Below are positions 27,045-56,597 of a stretch of 64,000 nucleotides of DNA, in pieces; position 1 is the stretch's first letter, and the number at the start of each line of letters is the position of its first letter. The notes below the pieces were generated by a model. It was not told where the DNA came from. It did not search any database and saw only the letters and a list, made by a program, of their open reading frames with translations. The stretch lies in assembly GCA_017453065.1 (NCBI GenBank), contig JAFTKW010000015.1:1-64000 (forward strand). The letters are read 5' to 3'. The DNA is from Lachnospiraceae bacterium (GTDB lineage: Bacteria; Bacillota; Clostridia; Lachnospirales; Lachnospiraceae). The position numbers and the translations under genes are program-made.

Positions 27045-27073
27045 TTGACACGGACGGGGGTGGATGGTACATT
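27045..27073 (+). promoter_or_regulatory. Promoter of the toxin-antitoxin pair
   Basis: A perfect TTGACA, a 17-bp spacer and TACATT lie 23 bp before the chosen antitoxin ATG. The TTG of the -35 box also opens a longer reading frame, but it has no ribosome site. Confidence 0.7.
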
Positions 27074-27095
27074 TAAGAAAAAGGAGATGATTATT

Positions 27096-27410
27096 ATGGT
27101 AGAACATTTAAATGTTGCAATGGCACCAAAAGATTCTACTTTCCAGGTAAGAATCAATTCTGAAATAAAAAAGGCAGTTGAAGAAATTTATGCTAGAACT
27201 GGAATGACTTTGACAGATGCATTTAATACCTTTATTCAGCAATCTCTTAACGTAGAAGGGTTGCCTTTTTTGGTTACTCAAAACAGCAAAGAAGCCCTCA
27301 GGGAGCAGGCAATTGCTATGCTTATGATGGATTTGAAGAGAGCAGAAGAACGTGCAGAGAAAGAAGGATGGATTGACGCAGACGACCTCGAAAAGGAATT
27401 GGGGGTATAA
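27096..27410 (+). CDS. RelB/DinJ family antitoxin
   Basis: The start ATG at 27096 has AAGGAG 9 bp upstream. The 104-residue protein has a ribbon-helix-helix N-terminus: the strand TFQVRINSEIKKAVEEIYAR, then GMTLTDAFNTFIQQSL, a close match to DinJ/RelB antitoxins that bind their own operator. The C-terminal tail is charged (LKRAEERAEKEGWIDADD), the toxin-wrapping part. The toxin gene starts 2 bp after the stop. Antitoxin and toxin together normally repress the promoter at 27045. Confidence 0.85.
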   Translation: MVEHLNVAMAPKDSTFQVRINSEIKKAVEEIYARTGMTLTDAFNTFIQQSLNVEGLPFLVTQNSKEALREQAIAMLMMDLKRAEERAEKEGWIDADDLEKELGV

Positions 27411-27412
27411 GT

Positions 27413-27676
27413 TTGAAGAAAATAAAATATACTCCTGATGCCGCGGATAAACTTCGTGCTATCAATACAGCTATATCGCTACAATATGGTAGCAAGAAAG
27501 CAAAAGAGATAGTCGGAAGTATTACGGGCGCAATTCGAGGACTTGTCGTTAATGAACAAATGGGGCCATCGGTAGGGCATATGTTTGGAGTGGCTTCTGA
27601 CTATCGATATATATTTGTATCGAGAAATTATGTGTTTTATAGCATTGAAAATATAGGTACAGTGGTGCAAAGATAG
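27413..27676 (+). CDS. RelE/ParE-like toxin, short at the C-terminus
   Basis: Begins at a TTG 2 bp after the antitoxin stop (MKKIKYTPDAADKLRAI), a typical RelE/ParE start. The fold pattern continues through GAIRGLVVNEQMGPSVG and DYRYIFVSRNYVFYSIEN. At 87 residues it stops at GTVVQR, just where relatives continue with a last strand and the catalytic or RNA-contact tail (a V-x-R-[IV]-[LY]-H/Y-x-R-x-D type ending). The downstream bases can be read in another frame as LYLILHRG, so a frameshift may have removed the tail. mRNA cleavage activity is therefore uncertain. Confidence 0.75.
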   Translation: MKKIKYTPDAADKLRAINTAISLQYGSKKAKEIVGSITGAIRGLVVNEQMGPSVGHMFGVASDYRYIFVSRNYVFYSIENIGTVVQR

Positions 27677-32037: not shown

Positions 32038-32880
32038 ATGTTAGAGATTTTAAAAGCGATTTTGTTTGGCGTGATTGAAGGAATCACAGAGTGGCTTCCA
32101 GTTAGTAGCACAGGACACATGATTCTGCTGGAAGAGTTTGTACATATGAATGTATCCAAGGAGTTTTGGGATTTGTTCCTAGTGGTAATTCAGCTTGGTG
32201 CTATTTTGGCATCTGTACTTCTTTTTTGGAACAAGATATGGCCTTTCCAGAAGCCAGAAAAGGGTAACTGGAAAAGTGTGTTTAAAGTAGATACTTGGAT
32301 GCTACTTTTTAAAGTCGGTGTAGCTTGCGTCCCTGGTGTATTTTTTGCAGTGCTCGGTATTGACGATTACTGTGATGCATTGTTCTACAACGGCTTTGGT
32401 GTATCAATTGCACTGATTGTGTTTGGTATTGTATTTATCTTGATTGAGAACTGGAACAAAAAGAGAACACCAAAGGTGGAGAATCTTTCTGATATGACCT
32501 TTAAGTTGGCTATCCTGATTGGTATTTTCCAGCTTTTGGCGGCAGCTTTTCCTGGAACCAGTCGCTCTGGAGCAACCATCATCGGAGCGTTGCTTCTTGG
32601 CGTAAGCCGTGTGGCGGCATCTGAGTTTACCTTTATCCTTGCAATCCCAGCAATGTTGGGTGCAAGTGCGCTGGAACTTTTGGACTTCCTTGAGATGGGA
32701 ATTTCCATGAGTGGCATGGAAATCGCAATCCTTATTGTTGGCGTAGTGGTAGCTTTCGTGGTATCCGTAGTGGTAATCAAATTCCTGATGGGCTACATCA
32801 AGAAACACGACTTCAAGGTGTTTGGATGGTATCGAATTGTACTTGGCGCTATTGTGCTTTTGTATTTTGCACTGAGATAA
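32038..32880 (+). CDS. uppP: Undecaprenyl-diphosphatase
   Basis: A 280-residue, multi-spanning BacA/UppP protein. The two active-site regions are complete: GVIEGITEWLPVSSTGH near the N-terminus (Glu14, Glu18, His27) and FPGTSRSGAT with Arg176. It dephosphorylates undecaprenyl pyrophosphate at the membrane, recycling the lipid carrier for cell-wall synthesis, and can give bacitracin tolerance. About eight hydrophobic segments are visible. A good terminator follows 13 bp after the stop. Confidence 0.95.
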   Translation: MLEILKAILFGVIEGITEWLPVSSTGHMILLEEFVHMNVSKEFWDLFLVVIQLGAILASVLLFWNKIWPFQKPEKGNWKSVFKVDTWMLLFKVGVACVPGVFFAVLGIDDYCDALFYNGFGVSIALIVFGIVFILIENWNKKRTPKVENLSDMTFKLAILIGIFQLLAAAFPGTSRSGATIIGALLLGVSRVAASEFTFILAIPAMLGASALELLDFLEMGISMSGMEIAILIVGVVVAFVVSVVVIKFLMGYIKKHDFKVFGWYRIVLGAIVLLYFALR

Positions 32881-32892
32881 AAATATTTTTGT

Positions 32893-32924
32893 AAAGGAGC
32901 ATTCTGCGAAGGATGCTCCTTTTT
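32893..32924 (+). terminator. Terminator after uppP
   Basis: AAAGGAGCAT pairs with ATGCTCCTTT around a 10-nt loop and runs into TTTTT. Confidence 0.8.
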
Positions 32925-32933
32925 GCTACATAA

Positions 32934-32964
32934 TTGACAGTATACTCCCGTGGGAGTATACTGT
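32934..32964 (+). promoter_or_regulatory. Promoter covered by a perfect 28-bp palindrome (probable operator)
   Basis: TTGACA (32934-32939), a 17-bp spacer and TATACT (32957-32962) form a near-ideal promoter. A perfect inverted repeat, ACAGTATACTCCC with GGGAGTATACTGT around GT (32937-32964), runs from inside the -35 box to just past the -10 box. A repressor bound here would block RNA polymerase. The XRE-type protein at 33647 is the obvious candidate ligand, which would make the module self-regulated. Confidence 0.85.
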
Positions 32965-32988
32965 ACTTGAAAGAGGAGGAATTATTTA

Positions 32989-33666
32989 ATGGTTAAGAAA
33001 ATATATCATGGCTCTTTGAAAATCATTGAAAAGCCATTGTATGGATATGGGAAATCCTACAATGACTATGGTTTGGGATTTTACTGTACAGATATTCTTG
33101 AGATGGCAATGGAGTGGGCGGTTTACAAAGAACAGAACGGGTACGCCAACTGCTATGAAATAGATTGTGATGGCCTAAAGATTCTTGATTTGAACGATTC
33201 TGAATACTGCATTTTGCATTGGCTCACTATATTGCTTGAGAATCGAGAGTTTGACATTCCTTCTGCATTGGCATTAGAGGCAAAGGAGTATTTGTTTTCG
33301 AATTTTAGGGTGAATTATGAGGACTATGATGTAATTGTCGGGTATCGTGCTGATGATAGTTATTTTTCTTTCGCACAGGACTTTTTGAATGGAACAATAT
33401 CTTATCGCCAGTTGAATAATGCGATGCGTCTTGGCAATTTGGGACAGCAGTTTGTTCTAAAGAGTAAAACAGCATTCGAAAAGATTAAGTTTGTGGGTAG
33501 TGAACTGGCAGAAAACAGGGAATGGTATGCAAGGAAGATGCTTAGAGACCAAACCGCTCGCCGTGAATATTTCAGTGAAGAACGAAGCAAACGTTTACCG
33601 GGCGATTTGTATATTACACATATTTTAGATGAGGAGATGAAAGCAGATGATTCGCGCTTACGATAA
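32989..33666 (+). CDS. DUF3990 protein, probable ADP-ribosyltransferase-fold toxin-like protein
   Basis: A 225-residue cytoplasmic protein matching the DUF3990 pattern. It starts KIYHGSLKIIEKP, then NDYGLGFYCTDILEMAMEWA. The middle part has DYDVIVGYRADDSYF, and later comes LGQQFVLKSKTAFEKI. The H-G-S start and Y-G-x-G-F-Y segment are what an ADP-ribosyltransferase (H-Y-x type) fold would use to hold NAD+; that reading is inference. AGGAGG lies 9 bp before the ATG. The gene overlaps the HTH gene by 20 bp and follows a palindromic operator, an arrangement like a toxin-antitoxin pair. Confidence 0.75.
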   Translation: MVKKIYHGSLKIIEKPLYGYGKSYNDYGLGFYCTDILEMAMEWAVYKEQNGYANCYEIDCDGLKILDLNDSEYCILHWLTILLENREFDIPSALALEAKEYLFSNFRVNYEDYDVIVGYRADDSYFSFAQDFLNGTISYRQLNNAMRLGNLGQQFVLKSKTAFEKIKFVGSELAENREWYARKMLRDQTARREYFSEERSKRLPGDLYITHILDEEMKADDSRLR

Positions 33667-34291
33667 GGTTTATCTTGACAAGGCCCGAACTGTTTTGGGG
33701 CGTATGCTGGACTTTGCAGTGTATGATTTAAAATATGATATAGAAGTTTTTTTTGAATTGTTTGTTCAGTCCTCTATGGCTTCTCGATTTGAAAATGGTG
33801 ATTTTGCAGTGATTGCGGGAATGTCTGGTGTAGAACTTGCTTATGAGGTGCTTTGGCAGTCGGGTCAGGATTTTAAACGCATCAAACCAAACTATACTGT
33901 AGGACGTAGTAAGGAATATTGGGCTGGTCATGCGCTAGCTTATTACCAATGGATGACAGCCTTAAGTTTTGAGGAGATTGTTCAGAATATCTCAATAGAG
34001 GATATTGTGGCTTTGTATTCGCCTTATCACGAGATGGATATCAGACAGTTTGTGGACAAGATGAACGAATTATACAAACAGGCGAAGCCGGAGACCAATC
34101 TAAAGAGATTACGGCAGAAAAGAAATTTAAGCCAGCGTGAACTTTCGGATCTCAGCGGTGTTCCACTGCGCACTCTGCAACAGTATGAGCAGAGACAAAA
34201 AAATATAAACAAAGCTCAGGTGGAGTATCTTGTTGTATTGGCCAAAACTCTGTGTTGTGAGGTGGAGGCGCTAATCGAAAAAACGGAATAA
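33647..34291 (+). CDS. XRE-type helix-turn-helix protein paired with DUF3990 (probable antitoxin/repressor)
   Basis: A 214-residue protein in two parts. Residues 1-145 form a helical domain of unknown function (VYLDKARTVLGRMLDFAVYD, SKEYWAGHALAYYQWMTALS, SPYHEMDIRQFVDKMNELY). Residues 150-214 are a Cro/C1-type helix-turn-helix (NLKRLRQKRNLSQRELSDLS, LRTLQQYEQRQKNINKAQ). The gene starts within the end of the DUF3990 gene. The C-terminal domain likely binds the palindrome at 32937-32964, and the N-terminal domain may bind and neutralise the DUF3990 protein; both are inferences from arrangement. Related two-part proteins are frequent in gut Firmicutes. Confidence 0.75.
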   Translation: MIRAYDKVYLDKARTVLGRMLDFAVYDLKYDIEVFFELFVQSSMASRFENGDFAVIAGMSGVELAYEVLWQSGQDFKRIKPNYTVGRSKEYWAGHALAYYQWMTALSFEEIVQNISIEDIVALYSPYHEMDIRQFVDKMNELYKQAKPETNLKRLRQKRNLSQRELSDLSGVPLRTLQQYEQRQKNINKAQVEYLVVLAKTLCCEVEALIEKTE

Positions 34292-34324
34292 AAAAGGTCG
34301 TGACCAATGTGGTCGCGACCTTTT
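34292..34324. terminator. Bidirectional terminator between convergent genes
   Basis: AAAAGGTCGTGACCA pairs with TGGTCGCGACCTTTT (one G-T pair) around a 3-nt loop, with A- and T-runs on either side. It can stop the plus-strand HTH gene and the minus-strand MBOAT gene. Confidence 0.85.
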
Positions 34325-34335
34325 GCTTGCTTATT

Positions 34336-35745
34336 TTAGAACTGGAAATAGATAAACGCTCCATTTCCGTGATAGAAAAATGCCAGTGCCATCAGGATGA
34401 CTAAGATAAAGAATACCTTAGGCCAAAACTTGTTAAAGTCTAGGAAGATATATCTGCCCTGCGCATGTTCTTTGAAGTATAAATACAGGTGGATGAGCAG
34501 GATAGCTAATCCATAAAGGACAAAGAAAATTGGCACATACTGCACGCCATCTGCAAAAGTAAAGAGTCTGCCAAGAACAGTCAAGGCATTGTCAAGGCTA
34601 GGGGCTCTAAAGAATACCCAGCAGATGGAGACGAAGATATAGGTGCCAAGGATGGAGAACAACTTTGCTGCTCCTGAAGAAGTTACAGCCAGGTCTCCAT
34701 TTGCAACTTTTCTCAATTTCATAAAAAGCTTGTGTACCACCAAAGCCAGTCCGTGTAGTGCACCCCATATAATAAAATTAAAACTTGCGCCGTGCCAAAG
34801 GCCACCAAGAACCATAGTCAAAAGCAGGTTTACATAAGTGCGGATCTGCCCTTTGCGATTTCCTCCAAGAGAGATGTAAAGGTATTCCTGAAGCCAGGAG
34901 GAAAGGCTGATGTGCCAGCGCTTCCAAAACTCTGTCACATTGGCAGAAAGGTATGGTACGTTAAAGTTTCGCGTCAAATCATAGCCCATGGCTTTGGCAA
35001 CACCGATTGCCATGTCGGAGTATCCTGAGAAGTCGCAGTAAAGCTGAATGGAATACGCCAGCACCGCACACAGGATGGAACTCCAACTGTATGCCATAGG
35101 GGCGGCAAATACTGCGTCTACCCCCACAGCCAAGCGGTCAGCAATGACTGCTTTTTTGATGGCACCCATGAGAAAGATCTGCGCTCCTTTTTCGAAGTTA
35201 TCTTTCGTAATGGCAGGATTGGTATCCAGCTGTGGAAAGAAAGCTGTGGAGCGGACGATAGGGCCAGCCATCAATTGTGGGAAAAAGCTGATATAGAGAG
35301 AAACCTTTAAAAAACTCTGCGGTTTTAAAAGTTTACCTCTATAAATATCTACAACATAACTGATGCTTTGGAAGGTATAAAAGGAAATACCCACCGGAAG
35401 GATAATGGTCAAAGCATCAAAGTATCCACCGGTAAAGAAGTGGAAATATTTGAAAAATCCTAGTACGCCAAGGCAAAGAACGATGCTGATAGTTACCCAT
35501 AACTTGCCCGCTGAGCCTTTGGAGGCATCTGCCCTGCCACGGCTTTGGCAAATCAGTCTTGCGCCTATATATACGACTAAGCATTGGAAAATGAGCAGTA
35601 GCAAAAAACGCACATCCCAATAAGCATAGAAGAAATAGCTAGCTAAAAGTAATATGACCTGTCTTGGACGCTGCTGCTTCACTAGAATAAGTAGCAACAT
35701 GGTTACTGCAAAAAAGATGGCGAAAGGAAGGGTTAAAAATGTCAT
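34336..35745 (-). CDS. MBOAT family membrane-bound O-acyltransferase (AlgI/DltB type)
   Basis: A 469-residue protein with about ten hydrophobic segments. It has the MBOAT pattern: FYTFQSISYVVDIYRGK and FPQLMAGPIVR in the middle, NVTEFWKRWHISLSSWLQEY, and the conserved His in GGLWHGASFNFIIWGALHG. Such proteins move acyl groups across the membrane to add acetyl or other esters to surface polysaccharides. Its start overlaps the SGNH-like gene upstream by 4 bp (ATGA type), and the two work as the usual transferase pair. The target polymer is not shown by the neighbourhood, as no polysaccharide cluster is adjacent. Confidence 0.9.
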   Translation of the reverse strand: MTFLTLPFAIFFAVTMLLLILVKQQRPRQVILLLASYFFYAYWDVRFLLLLIFQCLVVYIGARLICQSRGRADASKGSAGKLWVTISIVLCLGVLGFFKYFHFFTGGYFDALTIILPVGISFYTFQSISYVVDIYRGKLLKPQSFLKVSLYISFFPQLMAGPIVRSTAFFPQLDTNPAITKDNFEKGAQIFLMGAIKKAVIADRLAVGVDAVFAAPMAYSWSSILCAVLAYSIQLYCDFSGYSDMAIGVAKAMGYDLTRNFNVPYLSANVTEFWKRWHISLSSWLQEYLYISLGGNRKGQIRTYVNLLLTMVLGGLWHGASFNFIIWGALHGLALVVHKLFMKLRKVANGDLAVTSSGAAKLFSILGTYIFVSICWVFFRAPSLDNALTVLGRLFTFADGVQYVPIFFVLYGLAILLIHLYLYFKEHAQGRYIFLDFNKFWPKVFFILVILMALAFFYHGNGAFIYFQF

Positions 35746-56538: not shown

Positions 56539-56564
56539 TTGTAGACAGGGGTTGCCCTGCTAGA

Positions 56565-56597
56565 AAAACTCACGAGTTTTGCTCGTGAGTTTTTTTG
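56565..56597 (+). terminator. Terminator of tRNA-Gln
   Basis: AAAACTCACGAG pairs perfectly with CTCGTGAGTTTT around a 5-nt loop, followed by more T residues. Confidence 0.93.

Follow-up and report, generated by a model that had tools for sequence, protein, structure and literature searches.

The closest catalogued relative of the locus described here is the PADLOC phage-defence candidate PDC-M42, a module of a DUF3990 gene (M42A), a second gene (M42B) and a NADAR gene (M42C), which is named in no paper found by our literature search. DUF3990 also belongs to the DUF3791–DUF3990 modules PDC-M10 and PDC-M13 of PADLOC. RES toxins, known from the RES–Xre (ParST-like) systems, have NADase activity, and the RES–Xre partner represses its own operon. 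These systems pair a toxin with an ADP-ribosyltransferase (ART) fold with an Xre-type partner. In DarTG1 (DarT1–NADAR) and YarT–YbiA, an ART toxin shares an operon with NADAR, the antitoxin of DarT1 and YarT, which removes ADP-ribose from guanine (PMC11543638; PMC11125620); PMC11833690 extends this activity to RNA. DUF3990 itself is placed in Pfam's ART clan by PMC7955679, which also describes the triad that defines the H-Y-[EDQ] clade, and in Serratia it forms the C-terminal domain of an Rhs protein that is accompanied by an immunity gene (PMC4524185); the passages on DUF3990 in these two papers state no activity for it. Judged by its sequence, the cassette that we analysed is an HTH-bearing, NADAR-less branch of PDC-M42.

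The cassette lies in a 64,000-nucleotide stretch of a Lachnospiraceae genome (the window; GCA_017453065.1, contig JAFTKW010000015.1, positions 1 to 64,000). It consists of two plus-strand genes that overlap by 20 bp, just as the original prediction described: ORF1 (32989-33666, +) encodes a 225-aa DUF3990 protein, the predicted ADP-ribosyltransferase toxin, and ORF2 (33647-34291, +) a 214-aa protein, the predicted antitoxin and autorepressor. ORF1 matches PDC-M42A (2.6e-39), and the first 140 residues of ORF2, directly downstream, match PDC-M42B (1.8e-10), in the gene order of PDC-M42. Unlike PDC-M42, the window form adds a C-terminal helix-turn-helix (HTH) to the B protein as well as a conserved operator, and it lacks the NADAR gene (M42C) of PDC-M42.

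Upstream lies a gene that we take to be uppP (32038-32880, +), and the convergent neighbour is presumably an MBOAT-type gene (34336-35745, −), both named from their sequence. Behind uppP, an inverted repeat with a terminal T run (32893-32922, +) is a possible terminator that would insulate the cassette upstream; it is absent from the terminator-scan list. An intrinsic terminator with a 15-pair stem (34292-34324, +), seen in both the inverted-repeat listing and the terminator scan and absent from the original prediction, lies directly 3′ of ORF2 and ends the operon, which makes the cassette self-contained. The GC content of the cassette is 0.399 versus 0.44 for the window, and 1.6% of equal-sized windows are lower. 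A congeneric genome (G403, locus L160) has the uppP and MBOAT matches 20 bp apart in the same order and lacks the cassette; ORF1 and ORF2 were not found at any of 19 uppP loci (L160-L178, approximately 1.5 kb flanks; tblastn, 1e-5). Given this empty site and the cassette-free uppP loci, the cassette was most likely gained here, between uppP and the MBOAT-type gene. The same window also holds a RelB/ParE-like toxin–antitoxin pair at 27045-27676 (+; PF04221, 1.8e-5; PF05016, 9.3e-7).

The two genes are inherited together. Searching with seven aligned M42A proteins yielded at least 583 genome loci, the best 80 of which, a choice biased towards close kin, were analysed together with 11 viral contigs. 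An ORF2 homologue lies directly downstream of the ORF1 homologue at 89 of these 91 loci (85 by a start-codon rule and four more by eye), which bears out the expectation that the pair would co-occur in other genomes; the two exceptions, L128 and L156, are decayed. The partner runs through the HTH in 87 of the 89, L118 ending with its contig and L147 being cut, and 51 of the 85 loci found by the start-codon rule show an overlap of exactly 20 bp. Co-inheritance of two overlapping genes is what is expected of a type II toxin–antitoxin system. Intact M42A-type genes without a partner were not found among the 91 loci (best 80 of at least 583, plus 11 viral). The reverse arrangement occurs: solitary M42B genes lie beside remnants of a DUF3990 gene at L008 and L032 (by profile) and at L023 and L033 (by eye). 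Among the matches listed, 40 of 56 M42B places have DUF3990 directly upstream, and the other 16 are an upper bound for solitary partners, as one has DUF3990 downstream (G057) and one reaches a contig end (G121). Of five long DUF3990 genes inspected because they had no listed M42B, a local profile revealed the partner at two (L179, L183), a third reaches the contig end (L182), and no M42B partner was found beside L180 and L181, which belong to other branches. We consider a toxin–antitoxin relation between ORF1 and ORF2 likely. At L181 (1077-2313, G112:C6) the long DUF3990 gene overlaps a tRNA-editing domain gene (PF04073, 5.2e-24), and at L194 (G118:C1) and L196 (G135:C26) an M42B gene long enough to include the HTH lacks any adjacent DUF3990 hit.

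DUF3990 (PF13151) is the sole Pfam match of ORF1 (E = 2.9e-44), and the H-G-S and Y-G-x-G-F-Y segments of the original prediction are present, as Y-H-G-S and D-Y-G-L-G-F-Y. Across 66 M42A proteins, H7 is conserved in 65 and Y32 and Q154 in all; the H, Y and Q are likewise all present in 21 of 21 varied DUF3990 proteins. ORF1 thus carries the H, Y and E/D/Q residues of the H-Y-[EDQ] clade, and we infer that H7, Y32 and Q154 form its active-site triad. Matches to ART-PolyVal (28 of 66 M42A and 10 of 21 varied DUF3990 proteins; within residues 1-67 in the six of ten proteins where the match was located) and to PARP (2 of the 21) are weak and below Pfam cut-offs, and unrelated families recur weakly too (CITED hits 16 of the 66 M42A proteins, TerY_C 15). 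Sequence searches of DUF3990 against solved structures gave nothing convincing, one of them returning two chance-level matches (E = 0.76 and 2.8), and ORF1 was rejected as a sequence relative of a solved structure. Bacterial PARP was also rejected as a yardstick (1 of 199 genomes, below cut-off). Sequence provides fair evidence that ORF1 belongs to the ADP-ribosyltransferase superfamily, the NADAR genes near its relatives provide strong contextual evidence, and we regard ADP-ribosyltransferase activity of the protein as very likely.

The HTH-less relatives point to what this activity may be directed at. Of the 11 best-scoring HTH-less M42 modules, 8 have NADAR as their third gene, behind M42B (example scores, PF08719 8e-48 and PDC-M42C 8.5e-86), and across all 23 HTH-less M42B places it follows 8; in these eight places the M42B and NADAR matches are 21-65 bp apart. 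In three others (G035, G104 and G028; 237-aa frame) NADAR matches 432 bp from DUF3990 with no M42B match between. Counted from the side of NADAR, at least 11 of 33 places in 150 genomes adjoin DUF3990 (7) or M42B alone (4), a lower bound in which DUF3990 was taken among the matches listed and M42B from the 11 best HTH-less modules. These relatives resemble DarTG1 and YarT–YbiA in combining an ART toxin and NADAR in one operon. Unlike in DarTG1, ORF1 of the window has no DarT match in Pfam, NADAR is absent and M42B is an extra partner. The company of NADAR, combined with its chemistry, makes ADP-ribosyl-guanine the most plausible product of DUF3990. For ORF1 itself the target is carried over from these relatives, since NADAR has no place in the flanks examined of any of the 91 HTH-form loci (best 80 of at least 583, plus 11 viral) and follows only 8 of 23 HTH-less places; by this analogy, guanine has slightly less than an even chance of being the target of ORF1. 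No NADAR gene lies beside the window cassette, and the host genome (84.7% complete) holds one fragment, on contig C23, with three stops and a score below cut-off. At L187 (4260-7480, G112:C40), a CRISPR array with units of approximately 66 bp adjoins M42B and a NADAR gene that a stop divides in two; DUF3990 gives no hit next to this pair.

The same observations bear on whether ORF1 might instead deplete NAD+, as RES toxins do, and modify no nucleic acid, with antitoxin action and autoregulation unchanged. RES–Xre is a precedent for the pairing of a toxin of ART fold and an Xre-type protein, and an HTH antitoxin without an eraser, as in the 91 HTH-form loci, would fit the loss of NAD+. This reading leaves unexplained why NADAR accompanies DUF3990 both where M42B separates the two (eight places) and where M42B is lacking (three), given that NADAR reverses guanine ADP-ribosylation (PMC11543638 and PMC11125620), and the Pfam scan of ORF1 gave no RES match. 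The window cassette further differs from RES–Xre in having DUF3990 in place of RES, an HTH placed C-terminally on an unrelated antitoxin domain and the toxin gene first. We therefore consider NAD+ depletion unlikely and keep to a transfer reaction, with guanine as the best candidate acceptor.

ORF2 carries the C-terminal HTH that had been predicted (HTH_3, residues 152-188, E = 3.4e-8). Its N-terminal domain had been taken to be novel and possibly a new antitoxin type; we rejected this because residues up to approximately 140 (from about residue 2) correspond to PDC-M42B. An HTH-less form of that domain (L007) matches the PADLOC profile far better, at 5.1e-78. Elsewhere, DUF3990 is accompanied by one or two small proteins: DUF3791 (PF12668, 2.9e-21, L037) plus a second small protein, a 150-aa protein, or one protein whose second half is DUF3791 (L061, 1.6e-23). 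In HHalign, a broader alignment of ORF2-type partners (A2) aligned with DUF3791 over its second half (probability 74.7, E = 2.6e-5). The large ORF2 alignment (A5) gave weak results with DUF3791 (probability 6.8), with the second small partner (P 0.097) and with 154-aa partners (probability 3.5, the alignment falling on the HTH), and comparison with the one-protein partner of L061 gave nothing (P 0.36). HMMER matched small DUF3990 partners at weak scores to both halves of the ORF2-type profile. Its first round (E < 1) returned 18 further real ORFs along with three reversed decoys; by our reading 15 of the 18 are small DUF3990 partners, and the best decoy (0.014) outscored all but three of these. 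In the last round the two halves of the L061 partner, the one with DUF3791 among them, both fell on the first half of the profile, which suggests that the units are repeats of a single kind. We have moderate confidence that the N-terminal domain of ORF2 consists of fused DUF3791-type units, the usual partners of DUF3990. The cassette would thereby resemble PDC-M10 and PDC-M13, which share the DUF3990 family and whose small partners resemble parts of this domain; it differs from them in its longer DUF3990 protein (225 versus approximately 155 aa) and in having the partner domain in one protein, joined to an HTH.

HTH repressors often carry helical dimerisation domains, and ORF2 has an HTH with a matched operator; its N-terminal domain might thus serve only for dimerisation or ligand sensing, with neutralisation achieved through repression alone. 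In other modules, the M42B domain occurs directly after DUF3990 without any HTH, and at L003, L021 and L031 it occurs where the DUF3990 protein carries the HTH, at its own N-terminus. The domain is thus kept where it is unable to repress through an HTH of its own, which makes a purely dimerising or sensing role very improbable.

The genes are preceded by the near-ideal promoter of the original prediction, a sigma-70 type TTGACA-17-TATACT at 32934-32962 (+) with 11 of 12 consensus matches. The palindrome reported over it, at 32937-32964, is perfect in its two 13-bp arms (32937-32949 and 32952-32964), which contain the half-sites of the core TACTCC-N4-GGAGTA (32943-32958), and not at its centre, an asymmetric GT, which leaves 26 of 28 bp symmetric; likewise, it encloses the whole −10 box as claimed, but of the −35 box it takes in no more than the final three bases. 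Perfect 13-nt arms occur in two of the 22 short-range inverted repeats listed for the window, the operator and 56564-56594, and the operator site is unique in the 2.73-Mb genome even at three mismatches in its 24 specified bases. Promoter-like sites are common, with three in 32800-34400 versus 3.9 expected. The core, allowing one mismatch, lies upstream of the ORF1 homologue at 58 of the 91 loci (best 80 of at least 583, plus 11 viral); five control-window sets gave 1, 0, 0, 0 and 0 of 91, and ten shuffled half-sites were found in 0-5 of 91 upstream regions. Two-sided variants at other loci include TACACC/GGTGTA, TATCGC/GCGATA, TATCAC/GTGATA and others, these classes having been named after inspection of the same upstream regions, and 11 of 92 upstream regions match none of the classes sought. 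Where a related locus has an operator of any class (80 loci), a sigma-70 promoter overlies it in 65 cases, compared with 150 of 1820 random places.

Operator class varies with the HTH. In the 62 of 70 rows that had an operator class and were used, residues 179 and 176 of the recognition helix were the most informative of the ORF2 columns scored, and these top two columns are positions where contact with DNA is expected. Columns 117 and 26 of the N-terminal domain rank third and fourth, indicating that shared ancestry adds signal. The host genome has three DUF3990 modules, each with different promoter elements: the exact core TACTCC-N4-GGAGTA occurs only at the window site; the C6 module has TATCTC-N4-GAGATA, which has no other exact copy in the genome and is preceded at 32 bp by a copy with one mismatch; and in the C9 module (L003 / L005, G000:C9) the HTH is N-terminal on the DUF3990 protein. 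By eye, an element of approximately 18 bp, different from the others, is repeated on both sides of the C9 promoter. On one viral contig (L147), a single case, ORF2 is cut before the HTH and an operator of any class is absent. A wider ORF2 regulon was considered and rejected, as the exact core occurs once in the genome and one-mismatch sites number 7, versus 3 for a reversed-pattern control. The conservation of the operator and its covariation with the recognition helix support the predicted binding of ORF2 to the palindrome. The comparative support for autoregulation by ORF2 through the promoter operator is strong, and we consider such autoregulation highly likely.

Relatives of the cassette are distributed sporadically across phyla, and also lie on viral contigs and plasmid records. 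The phylum labels, some of them from metagenome bins, include Bacillota, Spirochaetota, Actinomycetota, Lentisphaerota, Kiritimatiellota and Pseudomonadota. They are interspersed in the tree: with 23 of 63 forks open, the labels need nine changes versus a least possible five, which agrees with transfer and is no proof of it. A type I restriction gene occurs no more than 5 kb from 4 of 23 HTH-less places, and from 0 of 25 C-terminal-HTH and 0 of 8 N-terminal-HTH places, as judged from a hand-picked part of the match tables (mostly HsdS), the N-terminal class having been set by ORF length with the HTH checked in three proteins; the HTH-bearing form thus differs from PDC-M42 at large in the places compared. 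The full tables add two C-terminal-HTH places, G044:C25, where N6_Mtase matches weakly (E = 5.2e-5) at a distance of 3.8 kb, and G080:C16, with HsdR-like and N6_Mtase matches approximately 5 kb away. A role of the cassette in phage defence is plausible, by association only.

Most known ARTs act on proteins, and in the window the pair forms one chromosomal insertion that brings both a promoter and a terminator. ORF1 might accordingly modify a protein, in which case the pair would be a regulator or stress switch and ORF2 only a repressor. This reading sits poorly with sporadic spread across phyla, viral contigs and plasmid records, with the restriction genes beside some HTH-less forms, with solitary partners next to remnants of DUF3990 genes and with the use of DUF3990 in Serratia as the C-terminal domain of an Rhs protein next to an immunity gene (PMC4524185), and we judge it quite unlikely.

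As a whole, we favour, as on balance probable, a mobile, self-repressing toxin–antitoxin unit, apparently exchanged among gut bacteria, with an ART toxin that probably acts on guanine in nucleic acid and an antitoxin that blocks it. ORF1 would transfer ADP-ribose from NAD+ through its H-Y-Q site to a target in the cell, most likely guanine in DNA or RNA, and the N-terminal domain of ORF2 would bind and block it. ORF2, as a dimer or in complex with ORF1, would occupy 32937-32964 and shut the promoter; were ORF2 lost or titrated, for example during phage infection, the promoter would open and free ORF1 would stop the cell. Many HTH-less M42 modules add a NADAR eraser, instead of which the HTH form may use repression and blocking.

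More broadly, we tentatively propose that DUF3990 proteins are unrecognised guanine-specific nucleic-acid ADP-ribosyltransferases with an H-Y-Q site, held in check by a non-enzymatic, DUF3791-like blocker, a NADAR eraser or both. The HTH would replace the eraser here, sitting on the toxin or the antitoxin according to branch, and divergence of the HTHs would let several modules in one cell use operators of their own, so that a helix-to-operator code could be read from them. DUF3990 is common in the family of the host, with matches in 86 of 150 genomes, yet few papers name it, and the link to NADAR gives it a concrete, testable activity, ADP-ribosylation of guanine. The domain analysis of ORF2 also suggests a role for DUF3791-type partners, which may be blockers, and the 80 related loci with a named operator class are natural repressor/operator pairs through which the reading of DNA by Xre-type helices may be followed.
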